From positions 1-40,566 of the forward strand of contig CALRCM010000005.1 of NCBI GenBank assembly GCA_943354555.1: DNA of 40,566 bases, read 5' to 3'. Origin of the DNA: Candidatus Peribacteria bacterium (GTDB lineage Bacteria; Patescibacteriota; Gracilibacteria; Peribacterales; Peribacteraceae). The notes under the pieces were generated by a model that saw nothing but the letters and a program-made list of their open reading frames with translations, was not told the DNA's origin and ran no database searches. Of the stretch, positions 13,966 through 19,708 are shown one piece after another (the stretch's first letter is position 1; the number at the start of each line of letters is the position of its first letter). A program made the position numbers and the translations under genes.

Positions 13966-14949
13966 TCATTCCACCACAATCGTTCCCTGAAACTGCGAAC
14001 TCAAATGATTGTGATAGCCCCAGCTGCCGATCTGCGTGAACGTGTACATGTACGTTTCACCGTTGATTAGCGTGCGGTTGGCATCAAGACCGACGAGCGC
14101 TGTGTGCGCGGGGTGAGGATTACTTGCGACCCAAAGGCCATTGTTGCTCGTGTTCTTGAAGATGACGGTGTCACCCTTCTTTACGCGGAGGATCATCGGG
14201 GAAAATCCGTCCTCGGTGTAGGTCACGATATTCTCTTCGTTCTCTGTGCCACCTTGTTCTTCGGAAGGAAGGCGACCTAAGCCGGGGGTGCCGTACTTCG
14301 CGCGGGCTTGCATGACGATCTTCGCCACTTCCGCCCGGTTGATATTATCGGTCGGACGGAATGTTCCTGTCGCCTGGCCTTCGATGTCGGTGTCTCCTGA
14401 GACGACTGTATCGCGGCTTAGAGATTCGATGGAAGCAGCGAACTCGGTGCTGGAAGAGACATCATCGTAACGCGTATCGATCTGCGTACTCTCCATATTT
14501 ACATGGAATGCGGAGGTGAAGATGGCAGCGACCTCGGCGCGCGTGGCAGCCTTATCGAGTCGTGTCCGCTGATTGATGACAAGAAATGTTTCACCTTTGG
14601 CGACGGAGACATAGGGCGAAGCCCAGTGGAGGAAGCCGCTCTGGATTTTACTGGCATAGAGATCCTCATCGTACCCTGCGCCTTCCACGGCGATTTTCAG
14701 CGCCTCGCCGATGGTGATGTCGTTGGCCGGACCGTACTTGCCGGTGAGATTTCCGCGACTGTCTTTGTAGCCGCTCACGATGCCCGCCTCAGCTGCAGTG
14801 CGAACGTGGGTAGCGAACCACGCTGATTGCGAGACATCTGTAAAGACGACGGTTTTGCCGTCGATGATCACCTGAATGCCCATCGCCTGGGCCAGGATTG
14901 GGATTGTAAGAGCGATTGCCGATGCTACGGAGAGAAGGCGGTGATTCAT
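13966..14949 (-). CDS. Secreted SLH-repeat protein with C-terminal cupredoxin-like domain
   Basis: 327 aa. Signal peptide 1-22 (ends AQAMG). Three SLH-type repeats follow: about 36-80 (FTDVSQSAWFATHVRTAAEAG), 105-150 (ATRAEVAAIFTSAF) and 160-215 (FRPTDNINRAEVAKIVMQA), which normally tether proteins to cell-wall polymers. A short acidic linker leads to a cupredoxin-like beta sandwich (about 240-327) starting VTYTEDGFSPMILRVKKGDTV. Potential metal ligands are H279, H282, H313 and H315 (NPHPAH; WGYHNHLSSQFQG). The Cys of blue copper proteins is Asn 314 and the usual axial Met is missing. It is therefore a wall-attached, probably non-blue copper-binding or structural domain. The cognate polymer is unknown. 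Confidence 0.85.
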   Translation of the reverse strand: MNHRLLSVASAIALTIPILAQAMGIQVIIDGKTVVFTDVSQSAWFATHVRTAAEAGIVSGYKDSRGNLTGKYGPANDITIGEALKIAVEGAGYDEDLYASKIQSGFLHWASPYVSVAKGETFLVINQRTRLDKAATRAEVAAIFTSAFHVNMESTQIDTRYDDVSSSTEFAASIESLSRDTVVSGDTDIEGQATGTFRPTDNINRAEVAKIVMQARAKYGTPGLGRLPSEEQGGTENEENIVTYTEDGFSPMILRVKKGDTVIFKNTSNNGLWVASNPHPAHTALVGLDANRTLINGETYMYTFTQIGSWGYHNHLSSQFQGTIVVE

Positions 14950-15863: not shown

Positions 15864-16847
15864 TTATTTCATCATTCTCCGCGCTCTCTCCATAAGTCTT
15901 TTGAGTACATCCTTTGATGCGACCGCGGCGCTCTGTACCGGTGTCGCCGGTTCCGGCACTGCATCAATGACTCTTCCTCCGTAGCGATTCGGCACAAGCT
16001 GCCCTGTGCGCATGTCGGTGATATTGCGCAGGTGCATCTTTCCGATATACGGATCGGAATTCATCGGCGTGTAGTAGAGGCAGTTTTCGAAGTAGTAGTG
16101 CGTCACCTGACTGTGGCGGGTACTTCCTGCCCGCTTGATCGGTTCGCCTCCGTGCAGCAGCGTCGCTGCCCAGATCACCGCCTGTCCTTTTTTCAGTGTA
16201 ACAATGTGTTTCTTGAGTCCTACAGCTTGCACATAGGCTTCCATACAATTTTCGTAGCGTGCGTAGGATTCCCGTCCGGAAGAAAGTCCCAGATCATGAA
16301 AGTCCCACGCCGGCATACGGTGACTTCCGGGGTACACATGGAGCGGGCCGGAGTCTTCGCCGATATCTTCCAGAGCGATCCATACGCCGCACATGAATCC
16401 GTGTGGAACAGAGTGAAAGTGGACGGTGTCGCTGTGGGTATGTTGCTGTGTTCCCACAGGGAAGTTCAGCGTCTGAAAGGGGATCGGATCGCGCTGGTAG
16501 AAGAGCCGCAGCACGCGGTCGATTGCGGGCAGAGTCGCGAGCATTTTTACGTCGTTGTCACTCTTCCATGCATCTTGTACACGCCCTATACCGGCGTACT
16601 TCGGTGCAAGAGTGTTGATGATGCGTGTACAGACAGCATCCAGATCCGCAATTTCCGTATCGATGATCGCATACCCGTCCCTCGCAAAAGCTTCGATCAG
16701 TGTACGGTCCGCTACAGGAAGATTGGCTTCATTGAGTAGCGTCGGAAAAAACGGCGTCATGAACCACGGCATGTTCATCTGCCGGAGACTTGCTTCCGTA
16801 GAGTCGGGACTTGCCATGATCGCCGCTGCAGTTCGCTGGATGTCCAT
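15864..16847 (-). CDS. Phytanoyl-CoA dioxygenase (PhyH) family Fe(II)/2-oxoglutarate oxygenase
   Basis: 327 aa with the double-stranded beta-helix of PhyH enzymes. The iron triad is visible as H138-S-D140 (QQHTHSDTVHF) and H232 (WAATLLHGGEPI), with R244 for 2-oxoglutarate; GVWIALEDIGEDSGPLHVYPGSH is a PhyH signature. Substrate unknown; bacterial relatives hydroxylate small molecules, lipids or natural products. The frame is open upstream to 17174, but that extra N-terminus is low-complexity antisense to the next gene, so ATG 16847 is preferred (ATG 16817 is also possible). It is divergent from the small membrane gene, with a gap of only 27 bp, so the two promoters must overlap. Confidence 0.85.
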   Translation of the reverse strand: MDIQRTAAAIMASPDSTEASLRQMNMPWFMTPFFPTLLNEANLPVADRTLIEAFARDGYAIIDTEIADLDAVCTRIINTLAPKYAGIGRVQDAWKSDNDVKMLATLPAIDRVLRLFYQRDPIPFQTLNFPVGTQQHTHSDTVHFHSVPHGFMCGVWIALEDIGEDSGPLHVYPGSHRMPAWDFHDLGLSSGRESYARYENCMEAYVQAVGLKKHIVTLKKGQAVIWAATLLHGGEPIKRAGSTRHSQVTHYYFENCLYYTPMNSDPYIGKMHLRNITDMRTGQLVPNRYGGRVIDAVPEPATPVQSAAVASKDVLKRLMERARRMMK

Positions 16848-16862
16848 CGGGTGATTGGAGAG

Positions 16863-16868
16863 TAGGAT
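16863..16868 (+). promoter_or_regulatory. -10 box TAGGAT, 6 nt before ATG 16875
   Basis: TAGGAT then acacct then ATG; the leaderless arrangement. Confidence 0.45.
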
Positions 16869-16874
16869 ACACCT

Positions 16875-17123
16875 ATGTCTTACGCTTTCCTTACGATCGC
16901 CGCCGCCGGCTACACGATTCTCATCGGAGCGATCATCCTGAATATCCTCGCCACTACTCTTGGGATTGTGACGTGGTACGGATTTCTGGAGAGCGCCGCG
17001 GCACACGGGTTTTTCGGTGCCATACGTCAGTCGGGCATCATCTCTGTTGTATATCTCTTTGCTCTCTATCCGCTGCTTCTCGGATGGATGGCGTGGGGAG
17101 TGATGGTTTGGGTAGCCAAATAA
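16875..17123 (+). CDS. Small two-helix membrane protein, unrecognised
   Basis: 82 aa with two long hydrophobic segments, about 5-35 (ILIGAIILNILATTLGIVTW) and about 54-82 (VVYLFALYPLLLGWMAWGVM), joined by a short polar loop (ESAAAHGFFGAIRQSG). The helices are rich in Trp and Tyr, suggesting a full membrane span each. No catalytic motif and no family recognised. The start is supported by TAGGAT 6 nt upstream. Divergent from the PhyH-family gene and upstream of the structured RNA at 17175, which has its own promoter beginning 17 bp after this stop. Confidence 0.75.
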   Translation: MSYAFLTIAAAGYTILIGAIILNILATTLGIVTWYGFLESAAAHGFFGAIRQSGIISVVYLFALYPLLLGWMAWGVMVWVAK

Positions 17124-17140
17124 GCCGGATTGACATACAT

Positions 17141-17168
17141 TTGACAATATGTGAAAATAATATATAAT
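17141..17168 (+). promoter_or_regulatory. Strong promoter TTGACA-16-TATAAT
   Basis: Both hexamers match the consensus exactly (17141-17146 and 17163-17168) with a 16-bp AT-rich spacer; start expected near 17175. Nothing downstream on this strand is coding. Confidence 0.85.
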
Positions 17169-17174
17169 ACTCAA

Positions 17175-17656: not shown

Positions 17657-17685
17657 TTTATAGCATTTTATATGATATATGTCAA
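17657..17685 (-). promoter_or_regulatory. Promoter TTGACA-17-TATAAA for the 71-aa gene
   Basis: Consensus -35, ideal 17-bp spacer, 5/6 -10, six bases to the ATG: the clearest leaderless promoter in the window. Confidence 0.85.
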
Positions 17686-17694
17686 TTTCAGGGG

Positions 17695-17704
17695 ATGGTA
17701 CAAT
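17695..17704 (+). promoter_or_regulatory. Extended -10 TGgTACAAT, 6 nt before ATG 17711
   Basis: TACAAT (17699-17704) with TG one base upstream, then tttctc and ATG. Confidence 0.6.
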
Positions 17705-17710
17705 TTTCTC

Positions 17711-18286
17711 ATGAAGACCACTCGCCTCGAGGCATTCAGTGACGGCGTCATCGCCATATTCATCACCGTTATGGTTCTTGCATTCAAGATTCCTGAAGGT
17801 GACGATATCGCAGCGCTCGGACCGACGTTGCCGCTGTTTCTCGCCTACGTCCTAAGCTTCGTGTACCTCGCCATCTACTGGAACAACCATCATCACCTGA
17901 TGCAGGTTACCGATCACGTCGATGGACGCATTCTCTGGGCAAACATGCATCTCCTCTTCTGGCTTTCCCTTGTGCCGTTTGCAACTGCTTGGATGGCTCA
18001 AACACACTTCGCCATGATTCCGACAGCATTGTATGGCGTGATCCTCCTCCTCGCTGCGCTCGGGTATTCCTTTCTGGTCATGGCGATCACCGCTCACGGT
18101 GACGCCAATCATCTCTTGAGAAAAGCCATAGGGCGTGACTACAAAGGAAAGATCTCCCTCGTGATCTATGTCCTTGCCGTTGCGCTCACGGGTGTTCACC
18201 AGTGGATCTCTCTTAGTCTGTACGCACTCGTCGCCATTATTTGGCTCGTTCCTGATCGCAGAATCGAGAGAGTGCTGGGGCATTGA
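17711..18286 (+). CDS. TMEM175-family (DUF1211) potassium channel
   Basis: 191-aa membrane protein with six hydrophobic helices. The family signature RLEAFSDGVIAIFIT (R5, F9, S10, D11) opens the first helix, which lines the ion path in TMEM175-type potassium channels; NNHHHLM and LFWLSLVPFATAWM match the rest of the family. One six-helix repeat per chain implies a homotetramer, as in other bacterial members. The start at ATG 17711 begins the family domain directly and lies 6 nt after TACAAT; an upstream ATG at 17672 would lie within the promoter. The stop is TGA followed at once by TAG. Confidence 0.9.
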   Translation: MKTTRLEAFSDGVIAIFITVMVLAFKIPEGDDIAALGPTLPLFLAYVLSFVYLAIYWNNHHHLMQVTDHVDGRILWANMHLLFWLSLVPFATAWMAQTHFAMIPTALYGVILLLAALGYSFLVMAITAHGDANHLLRKAIGRDYKGKISLVIYVLAVALTGVHQWISLSLYALVAIIWLVPDRRIERVLGH

Positions 18287-18584
18287 TAGTTGGATCAGAG
18301 AGGTCGAAGGCCACGCATCTCGGCTCATCCTCACTCCGTTCGGATTCGGTCGAGGCACTCGACCTCTGTTTCTCTTACAACAGAGAGGGCCGTAGGCCAC
18401 GAGCGAGCGTAGCGAGTCGAGTGGTAGACCTCATCCAAACTCATTGGAACATCTTGATACCCTACATGGAGCAAATAGCTGCACTCATGCAGGAAAAGCT
18501 CAATGCGGCTGATCTTCTCAAGGTGAGGACAAGAGCCGCTCTTCCTGCTCTTGCTACGCTCGGAGAATAGAACACAGGAGATTG
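18287..18584. other. Gap with repeats and one doubtful 34-aa frame
   Basis: Contents: GAGGTCGAAGGCCACG-like repeat sequence (18299 on), a hairpin CTCTGTT/AACAGAG near 18365-18386, the tRNA-flank repeat at 18388-18430, and an open frame from ATG 18466 to 18570 (34 aa, MEQIAALMQEKLNAADLLKV...). The short frame is helical and continuous with repeat-derived codons upstream; it may be a gene remnant. I do not accept it as a gene. Confidence 0.4.
18388..18430. repeat. tRNA-flank repeat, copy 1
   Basis: GGCCGTAGGCCACGAGCGAG, then CGTAGCGAGTCGAGTGGTAGACC. Its CCAC...GTGG part is an imperfect palindrome. The second copy abuts the 3' end of tRNA-Glu (19596-19636); here no tRNA can be seen beside it. 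Confidence 0.65.
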
Positions 18585-18593
18585 TGGTATGAT
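18585..18593 (+). promoter_or_regulatory. Extended -10 TGGTATGAT of the lipoprotein leader RNA
   Basis: TATGAT (18588-18593) with extended TG; seven bases later is G18600, the first base of the P1 helix of the leader RNA. No clear -35. Confidence 0.65.
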
Positions 18594-18599
18594 TTTGCC

Positions 18600-18733
18600 G
18601 ACCCGAACAATGAGTGGACTGCCATGTCCACGTTTATCTGATCAACGCAAAAAGGGGCATCCATGCCTCGGTCAAGCGTTGATGTAGGGAAACCTACTCA
18701 ATTGTTTGGGTCATCCGAGCGGGGGTGCCCCTT
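18600..18733 (+). ncRNA. Candidate riboswitch-like leader: four-way junction with long pseudoknot
   Basis: Four helices fit almost without linkers. P1: 18600-18613 with 18698-18712 (GACCCGAACAATGA against TCAATTGTTTGGGTC, one G-U and one bulge). P2: GTGGAC/GTCCAC (18614-18619/18626-18631). P3: ATCAACGC/GCGTTGAT (18641-18648/18676-18683). P4: GTAGG-GAAA-CCTAC (18684-18697), with a GNRA loop. The large P3 loop then pairs with the 3' tail: AAGGGGCA with TGCCCCTT (18652-18659/18726-18733) and CTCGG with CCGAG (18667-18671/18715-18719). The predicted RNA start coincides with P1, and the lipoprotein ATG is 32 nt past the tail. It matches no riboswitch class I know. Confidence 0.7.
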
Positions 18734-18764
18734 CTTGGTTACTCATTCCTTTCCCCCTCCACTC

Positions 18765-19184
18765 ATGACCAGATGGCCCCTCTACCCTCTTATGGTGCTC
18801 TGTGCCGTATCGCTGGCCGCATGTACGACGAAGCAAAAAGAGTCTGACGATAGCGAAGAGACAACGCTTGAAACGTATTCCGTCAAAGTCGCGCAGGAAG
18901 GCGGCGGTGATTCCGAGTATTCCACGATGGAAGTGTCAGGCTTGAACGAGGGCGACGAACGCGAAGCGGACGAATTTGTCTCTGTCGACTTCGGATGGCC
19001 CGAAGAATACGTGGATGCCAATCCCCAGAAGAACGTCATGTGGGTGCAATGTATGGAGGGGTATCGCATCAGTAGCTGCGTGAGCAAGACAAGTATGCTC
19101 ACTCCCACAAGCAACAATACGTGCGGCCTCATCATCGAAGACCAGCCGAAGAACATCGTGAGCTTCGACTGCGAGAAACGATGA
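18765..19184 (+). CDS. Small lipoprotein with four C-terminal cysteines, unrecognised
   Basis: 139 aa. A basic start and hydrophobic stretch end in the lipobox SLAAC, with lipidated Cys 20, so the mature protein is anchored to the outer face of the membrane. An acidic, Ser/Glu/Asp-rich linker (about 22-75) precedes a small domain with four cysteines (WVQCMEG, SSCVSK, NTCGLI, SFDCEK), probably two disulfides. No family recognised. ATG 18765 gives the exact lipoprotein signal; earlier in-frame codons would translate the structured leader. The leader before the ATG is pyrimidine-rich (tttccccctccactc). It is the only gene here with a long structured 5' leader, so its expression is likely controlled by that RNA. 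Confidence 0.75.
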   Translation: MTRWPLYPLMVLCAVSLAACTTKQKESDDSEETTLETYSVKVAQEGGGDSEYSTMEVSGLNEGDEREADEFVSVDFGWPEEYVDANPQKNVMWVQCMEGYRISSCVSKTSMLTPTSNNTCGLIIEDQPKNIVSFDCEKR

Positions 19185-19251: not shown

Positions 19252-19512
19252 TTATCCCTTCGTGGGATGTTTCCCCGAAGCCAGATTTTCTTTCTTCATC
19301 CTATTCCATGGTTTCACTTGCGCCTCTCGTCTACGCGCTTCCACAAGTGTTTGGTATTCTTCGGAATATAGAATACGAACAGGTCTTCGGTGTTGGGTAT
19401 AAATAGCGCCCGTTCCTTCATTGTGTCTTGCCTCTCGCGCTTTCAGATCATTACATGAGCCGGTATAGAGCGAACCGTCTGCACAGCGAGCGAGGTAAAA
19501 GTAATGAGACAT
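19252..19512 (-). CDS. Single-domain GIY-YIG endonuclease-like protein
   Basis: 86-aa stand-alone GIY-YIG domain of the UPF0213/YhbQ type: YFYLARCADGSLYTGSC (first and second motif strands), then LKAREARHNEG with the catalytic-type Arg, YTQHRRPVRILYSEEY and the EA..RE...K Glu-containing helix. Such small nucleases are widespread with poorly known roles; the usual GxTND is GSCND here. ATG 19512 is chosen because it opens the domain and TATACT (19527-19522) lies 9 nt upstream; the frame is open farther up but there runs into repeat and tRNA-flank sequence. It lies directly downstream of tRNA-Glu on the same strand. A second GIY-YIG domain in the window belongs to UvrC. Confidence 0.85.
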   Translation of the reverse strand: MSHYFYLARCADGSLYTGSCNDLKAREARHNEGTGAIYTQHRRPVRILYSEEYQTLVEARRREAQVKPWNRMKKENLASGKHPTKG

Positions 19513-19521
19513 TGGTTTGTG

Positions 19522-19527
19522 AGTATA
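19522..19527 (-). promoter_or_regulatory. -10 box TATACT, 9 nt before ATG 19512
   Basis: TATACT on the minus strand, predicting a leader of about 2-3 nt for the GIY-YIG gene. Confidence 0.5.
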
Positions 19528-19595
19528 GCCCCTCGGTTCGCTAGCGCTCACTCGGGGCACTCGTCTCGGCGTGATGCAGAAACTCAAATCGAAGA

Positions 19596-19636
19596 GGCCG
19601 CAGGCCACGAGCGAGGCCGAAGGCCGAGTCGAGTGG
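19596..19636. repeat. tRNA-flank repeat, copy 2
   Basis: GGCCGCAGGCCACGAGCGAG followed by GCCGAAGGCCGAGTCGAGTGG, running into the CCA end of tRNA-Glu. Compared with copy 1 the inner stem differs (GGCC-GAA-GGCC in place of CGTAGCG) while the outer bases are kept. Confidence 0.7.
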
Positions 19637-19708
19637 TAGCCCCACGGAGAATCGAACTCCGCTTTCCTGGATGAGAACCAAGTGTCCTAACCGATAGACG
19701 ATGGGGCC
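19634..19708 (-). tRNA. tRNA-Glu, anticodon CTC
   Basis: 75-nt cloverleaf on the minus strand: acceptor GGCCCCA with TGGGGCT (one G-U), discriminator A, encoded CCA (19636-19634), D arm with GGTTAGGAC, anticodon stem CTTGG/CCAGG around loop TTCTCAT (anticodon CTC at loop positions 3-5), and T arm CGGAG-TTCGATT-CTCCG. It reads GAG codons. The body resembles standard bacterial tRNA-Glu genes. The GIY-YIG gene follows it. Confidence 0.95.

Follow-up and report, generated by a model that had tools for sequence, protein, structure and literature searches.

Within the 40,566-nucleotide stretch of DNA analyzed here (the window), a short region immediately upstream of a gene for a small lipoprotein-like protein had been described in an earlier note as an undescribed, riboswitch-like leader RNA, and this raises the question of what kind of RNA it is, how widely it occurs, and what it might do for the gene that follows it. 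We tentatively favor the view that it is a cis-acting 5' leader with its own promoter, belonging to a family outside Rfam, that would control the gene located about 25 nt downstream as a two-state attenuator, a reading held, as a whole, with a little less than even confidence. The term undescribed is used here in the sense of no Rfam match and nothing in the literature searched. A scan of the whole window at the Rfam gathering threshold gave no match except a tRNA, and a permissive scan (E <= 10) of positions 18500-18850 found no known RNA; these scans rule out a known RNA family as the identity of the window RNA. Searches of the literature on Peregrinibacteria together with riboswitch or noncoding RNA found nothing, no regulatory RNA of Patescibacteria turned up in the literature searched, and the excerpted text of PMC11665869 mentions riboswitches only as a tool.

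The folding energy of positions 18585-18764 is -71.6 kcal/mol, compared with -50.8 kcal/mol (sd 3.8) for 200 dinucleotide shuffles (z -5.4), none of which folded as low. The minimum-energy fold of the RNA contains helices P1 to P4 with the lengths given in the earlier note and with P1 and P2, P3 and P4, and P4 and P1 directly abutting (Table 1); P1 consists of 12 + 2 bp with one bulged base, and the 5' end GACCCGAACAAU pairs with 18701-18712. The extended -10 element ends six bases ahead of the first base of P1, and transcription is therefore expected to start at or adjoining G18600, which agrees with the earlier placement of the RNA start at the first base of a four-way junction. Among the homologues described below, 29 of the 34 representatives have their best -10 hexamer 3-10 nt upstream of the RNA; in shuffled sequences the mean is 8.3 and the maximum 16. 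The complementarity between the large P3 loop and the tail behind P1, first noticed as two blocks of 8 and 5 bp, stands as a pairing but not in its extent, since it comprises 21 bp with small bulges (duplex energy -33.7 kcal/mol) between arms that are 43 nt apart. In the fold, the small hairpin within the P3 loop is a competitor of this pseudoknot; the tail is also able to form a hairpin by itself, and the 5' strand of P4 has an alternative partner located 5' of P3.

Table 1. Positions of the leader RNA, its predicted elements and the neighboring genes in the window.
Feature	Position	Strand	Basis or remark
Extended -10 promoter element TGGTATGAT	18585-18593	+	Sequence; position conserved in homologues
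Leader RNA	18599-18738	+	Full-length match of covariance models R1-R3
P1, 5' strand	18600-18613	+	Pairs with 18698-18712; minimum-energy fold of 18599-18738 and covariation
P1, 3' strand	18698-18712	+	Minimum-energy fold and covariation
P2 hairpin, 6 bp	18614-18631	+	18614-18619 x 18626-18631; minimum-energy fold
P3 hairpin, 8 bp, 27-nt loop	18641-18683	+	18641-18648 x 18676-18683; fold and covariation
Pseudoknot 5' strand (P3 loop)	18648-18671	+	Pairs with 18715-18737, 21 bp
Small hairpin within P3 loop (GGGGCA x TGCCTC)	18654-18669	+	Fold only
P4, 5 bp, GAAA loop	18684-18697	+	18684-18688 x 18693-18697; fold and swap test
Tail (pseudoknot 3' strand), end CCCCTTCTTGG	18715-18738	+	Fold and covariation
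Lipoprotein-like ORF, 139 aa (MTRWPLYPLMVLCAVSLAAC)	18765-19184	+	Start 26 nt past the RNA; without Pfam match
SLH plus cupredoxin-like protein	13966-14949	-	Neighbor
PhyH-like protein	15864-17174	-	Neighbor
TMEM175-like channel	17672-18286	+	Neighbor
Small GIY-YIG protein	19252-19608	-	Neighbor
tRNA-Glu(CTC)	19634-19708	-	Neighbor

The search of genomes of the Candidate Phyla Radiation (CPR) for which the earlier note had called revealed homologues across the Peribacteraceae and, more sparsely, elsewhere in the Patescibacteria. When 74 family genomes were searched at the DNA level, 13 had matches at E <= 0.1, several of these matches being short chance hits. The covariance model R1, built from 11 sequences, detected the RNA in 20 of 74 family genomes at E <= 0.05; within the genus of the window, two of five genomes carry it, and its distribution is patchy. 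At E <= 0.02, the second model, R2, matched 28 of 353 genomes from the class, of which 21 belong to the family and seven to seven other families; in a sample of 379 genomes from the phylum it matched 16 at E <= 0.01. The third model, R3, found 19 of 361 genomes at E <= 0.001, one of them by way of a LOOT RNA (L185). By name, the contigs with matches are from Candidatus Peribacteria, Peribacteraceae and Peregrinibacteria. A phage origin was discarded, as the loop pattern occurs in four viral contigs, none of which scored with R1 at E <= 1, and a spread to other phyla was rejected on the basis of 117 genome contigs carrying the loop pattern: ten scored over the full length, all named as Peregrinibacteria or Peribacteria, an eleventh contig so named (L152) had a score confined to the loop, and the remaining 106 reached at most 17.3 bits. 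Copy numbers per genome are lower bounds, as only the first candidates of each genome were scored. Two LOOT RNAs (L184, L185) are among the 42 members counted below, and one (L184) is among the 34 representatives; left out beforehand were L040/L175 (one truncated place), L170 (the same place as L047) and L044/L179. One row of alignment A4/R3 (L047, minus strand, 19.9 bits) is likely spurious. In L044/L179 (contig 55 of genome G015) only the P3 loop region is left, and this is likely a decayed copy.

Compensatory changes among these homologues, another check that the earlier note had asked for, were found in P1, P3 and the tail pairing. On an alignment of 26 sequences, 36 pairs were counted, 14 of which are pseudoknot pairs that were not used to build or fit the alignment. 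Standard pairs occupy 93.9% of the cells, versus 72.9 after shuffling and 38-48 when partners are slid by 1-3 columns; both sides have changed in 30 of the 36 pairs, compensatory cells number 166 versus 43.6 in shuffled data, and the covariation score is 0.541 versus 0.171. Both-side changes are seen in all 11 modelled pairs of P1 (95.0% of cells paired) and in six of the seven modelled pairs of P3, counts that lean towards the model because these two helices, together with the P3 extension, are what alignment A3 was fitted to. The pseudoknot played no part in that fit; its central eight pairs are 99.0% paired, five of them with changes on both sides.

A swap test, which is free of any alignment, compared each strand with its own and with foreign partners among the 34 representatives, which are at or below 80% identity. 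Own partners pair better than foreign ones for P1 (-23.2 versus -8.7 kcal/mol), P3 (-20.5 versus -11.4) and the loop/tail helix (-30.6 versus -23.1), in each case with 0 of 20,000 permutations reaching the observed value, counts that are not probabilities because the members are related. When the loop was selected independently of the tail that belongs to it, the loop/tail result was again 0/20,000; the P4 test reported below was likewise run without selecting the hairpin by its own pairing. The loop/tail pairing spans 16-24 bp among homologues, for instance GUGGGGCA x UGUCCCAC in L045 and AAGGGCCGUC x GACGGCCCUU in L039, and all six R3 loci from outside the training set of R3, two of them nearly identical, possess it as well (17-25 bp). 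P2 is not a universal helix, its region being better folded than shuffles (p <= 0.05) in only 14 of the 34 representatives. In L223, L224 and L228, a GGAC(AC) segment 3' of the tail could pair with GUCC of the tail, and L223 and L224 contain GGAGG in the same short region.

Two partners are possible for the strand immediately 3' of P3: the strand just 5' of P3, with which it forms an extension of P3, or the strand that follows, with which it forms the GNAA-capped P4. Both pairings were retrieved by the swap test among representatives with a recognizable P4: the P3 extension gave -9.83 versus -6.56 (0/20,000; 19 representatives) and P4, tested with a fixed anchor, -6.18 versus -3.94 (1/20,000; 15 representatives), while the control pairing, the third combination of these strands, was null (9204/20,000). 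Among 27 members for which duplex energies were compared, 21 favor the extended P3 over P4; the window RNA is not one of these, its P4 being stronger (-7.2 versus -5.2 kcal/mol for the P3 extension). Judged by these comparisons, there are two conserved alternatives, of which the four-way junction is only one, and because P4 and the P3 extension compete and both covary, the RNA looks bistable. From A-form geometry, we infer that a 21-bp helix is too large for the 27-nt loop closed by P3, so that full loop/tail pairing should open P3. Deleting one helix at a time raises the energy of the fold by 11.6 kcal/mol (P3), 10.7 (the small loop hairpin), and 6.9 and 9.8 (the two parts of the tail hairpin); by a crude estimate, these costs and the -33.7 kcal/mol of the loop/tail duplex would be roughly balanced. 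The earlier note had seen in the loop/tail pairing an expression platform; the pairing is conserved and the design is switch-like, with a coupling to expression that is hypothetical, as is the status of the leader as a candidate riboswitch.

Taken together, comparative sequence analysis establishes the position of the promoter, P1, P3, the long loop/tail pseudoknot, the mutual exclusivity of P4 and the P3 extension, and the narrow distance to the start codon; a cis-acting leader is well supported, and the competing helices support switching. In the attenuator that we envision, P3 would be extended and the tail folded on itself in one state; in the other, the tail would invade the P3 loop over about 20 bp, P3 would open at least partly, and P4 would form. 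The tail/loop helix together with the U-rich stretch would then most likely act as an intrinsic terminator-like element or a strong pause before the gene, and the balance between the two states would be set by a signal, be it a small molecule, a protein or stress. In 31 of the 34 representatives, the five nucleotides that follow the pairing block include at least four U, which fits a terminator made by tail and loop. The U-rich stretch of the window is broken (TTCTTGG), and L045, with ACCTTGG, has lost the U run but retains the pairing; it is thus conceivable that pairing with the A-rich loop, and not termination, is the real constraint. Further points against an attenuator are that the RNA is patchy and dispensable, that the genes downstream of it lack a shared pathway, and that one copy, L181, has no ORF behind it at all.

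The earlier note had also speculated that the ligand might be something sensed or handled by the lipoprotein, an idea that the downstream genes do not support. The 139-aa protein, which carries what we take to be a lipoprotein-type signal, has no relatives in the 58 other genomes searched, and homologues of the RNA precede unrelated genes. Pfam-type families found downstream are DNA methylase, MBOAT, SNase with SLH domains and DUF4011 helicase, with GDSL and a NucS-like protein below the curated cut-off, and zinc-ribbon and unknown membrane proteins are also among the products; no common pathway was seen among them. This family scan covered 20 of 37 downstream proteins and 10 LOOT-associated ones, and the PADLOC library (10 proteins) matched the methylases, a PDC-S37 protein and a PDC-S11/S18-like protein. 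In the set of downstream products, the L027 protein begins one codon too late. The products are mostly predicted membrane or secreted proteins: a strongly hydrophobic stretch is present in 25 of 37, versus 22 of 92 neighboring ORFs (p 5e-6). The window lipoprotein and the L023 product, which look secreted, fall just below the hydrophobicity cut-off and are uncounted; L028, L048, L176, L181 and L186 of the 42 members and three of the 30 LOOT loci have no usable ORF and were left out. One methylase gene has four homologues in the family, two of them preceded by the RNA, and one homologue with 57% identity lacks it; the leader is thus a module and not obligatory. L181, a copy without a downstream ORF, is followed by a terminator-like hairpin and is possibly a stand-alone RNA. 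In L021, L022, L024, L029 and L030, a CUGCUC-like element and an AUGAGC-type start, 0-40 nt past the RNA, are common to methylase and membrane-protein leaders, so that conservation reaches into the first codons.

The membership test places the window RNA outside LOOT RNA (RF03000): it stays below the gathering threshold, there is no LOOT match at E <= 10 in 18500-18850, and R2 fails to detect any of 30 classical LOOT loci. R2 does match L184 and L185, which are LOOT RNAs above the Rfam gathering score, and judging from the sequences, architecture and part of the gene repertoire are common to both types. LOOT RNA is present in 51 of 239 sampled Patescibacteria genomes, none of the 51 from the class of the window, and in 0 of 14 control genomes; four genomes (G400, G528, G546, G569) carry both types. 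Both are patescibacterial, and in both the P3 hairpin is directly followed by a GNAA-capped hairpin, the tail pairs with the P3 loop, the end is U-rich, and an ORF begins soon after. Unlike the window RNA, which has the closing helix P1 instead, LOOT RNA begins with a local 5' stem-loop (UGCCUAAACC...GGCAUGGCA, consensus), and it possesses an extra hairpin between P4 and the tail. Its loop/tail pairing lies outside the Rfam model and was found in this analysis: just 3' of the RF03000 match in loci L189-L218, a tail pairs with the apical region of P3 over 17-23 bp in 29 of 30 loci and over 13 bp in L207, with -27.7 kcal/mol for own versus -18.7 for foreign partners (0/20,000; 29 representatives). 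The control segment taken 3' of the tail gave a signal instead of a null result (1/20,000), at least partly explained by copies of a P3 arm: in six of the 30 loci (L189, L190, L193, L204, L211, L217), an exact copy, 10-16 nt long, of the 5' arm of P3 contains the downstream ATG or lies at most 3 nt from it, so that the 3' arm could pair with the start region. The same test was null for the window type (3560/20,000). An ORF starts 15-60 nt past the approximate tail end in 26 of the 30 LOOT loci; type III methylase, SNase, NucS-like proteins and two zinc-ribbon groups occur downstream of both types, and the proteins downstream of L177 and L206, one of each type, are 58% identical. LOOT RNA is mentioned for its covariations in the excerpted text of PMC7657543.

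The main rival to the attenuator is control at translation, in which the tail, or a hairpin formed by it, would govern access to the start codon; we consider this unlikely, yet worth serious attention. The ATG is close (median gap 23.5 nt), hairpins lie over the start in L043 (z -3.9), L045 (z -3.2) and L183 (z -5.5), the leaders of methylase and membrane-protein genes have a CUGCUC...GAGCAG-like element around the AUG, and the arm copies at LOOT start codons would allow the 3' arm of P3 to cover them. The spacer of the window, however, is almost unfolded (-2.2 kcal/mol, z 0.5), the window type gave the null result for arm copies, and no start hairpin common to the members was found. Less probable still is a constitutive structural element that senses no signal and serves message stability, protection of the 5' end or ribosome recruitment; the unrelated gene partners would suit it, as would an RNA that begins at the predicted transcription start with P1 capping its 5' end, but a static cap has no need of two mutually exclusive covarying helices.

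That the RNA acts in trans as a small RNA, its position before genes being incidental, strikes us as quite improbable. The Rfam type of the related LOOT RNA is sRNA, and L181 would fit such a role, but 24 of 33 representatives have, 15-45 nt past the tail, an ATG that opens an ORF of 40 codons or more, versus 4.4 on average at random positions in the same loci (maximum 10 in 200 trials), and membrane or secreted products are enriched downstream. A chance fold or a recent functionless duplicate, for which the patchy distribution and the one decayed copy might be cited, we regard as having next to no likelihood: the shuffling controls and the covariation rule out a chance fold, and the compensatory changes exclude this explanation unless the alignments are wrong.

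Returning to the attenuator, a broader but rather doubtful proposal is that LOOT and the window type form a widespread patescibacterial class of leaders, in which a loop/tail pseudoknot of about 20 bp would serve as a regulated terminator and one signal, perhaps phage attack or host-cell contact, would set a regulon of surface, secreted and DNA-defense functions through RNA alone. Knowledge of how Patescibacteria regulate their genes is scant; to this the analysis adds a leader RNA that is supported by covariation, along with its predicted switch, promoter and target genes, and the structural link provides LOOT with a missing 3' half and a likely role in cis. It raises the question of which signal opens these leaders and why genes for surface proteins, secreted nucleases and methylases share them.

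With pseudoknotted riboswitches, the window RNA shares its position as a 5' leader, mutually exclusive helices and a tail just upstream of the gene, and a conserved structured leader ahead of a coding region is what one expects of a riboswitch. Genes tied to one metabolite or signal were not found downstream, and the lack of one shared pathway among them is unusual for a metabolite riboswitch. The loop/tail helix is, in addition, far longer than in the familiar examples of such riboswitches. Intrinsic-terminator attenuators, in turn, resemble the window RNA in having a G+C-rich helix followed by a U-rich stretch, with an ORF about 25 nt later; unlike in these, the U stretch of the window is interrupted, and the arms of its helix lie tens of nucleotides apart, one of them inside the loop of another hairpin.
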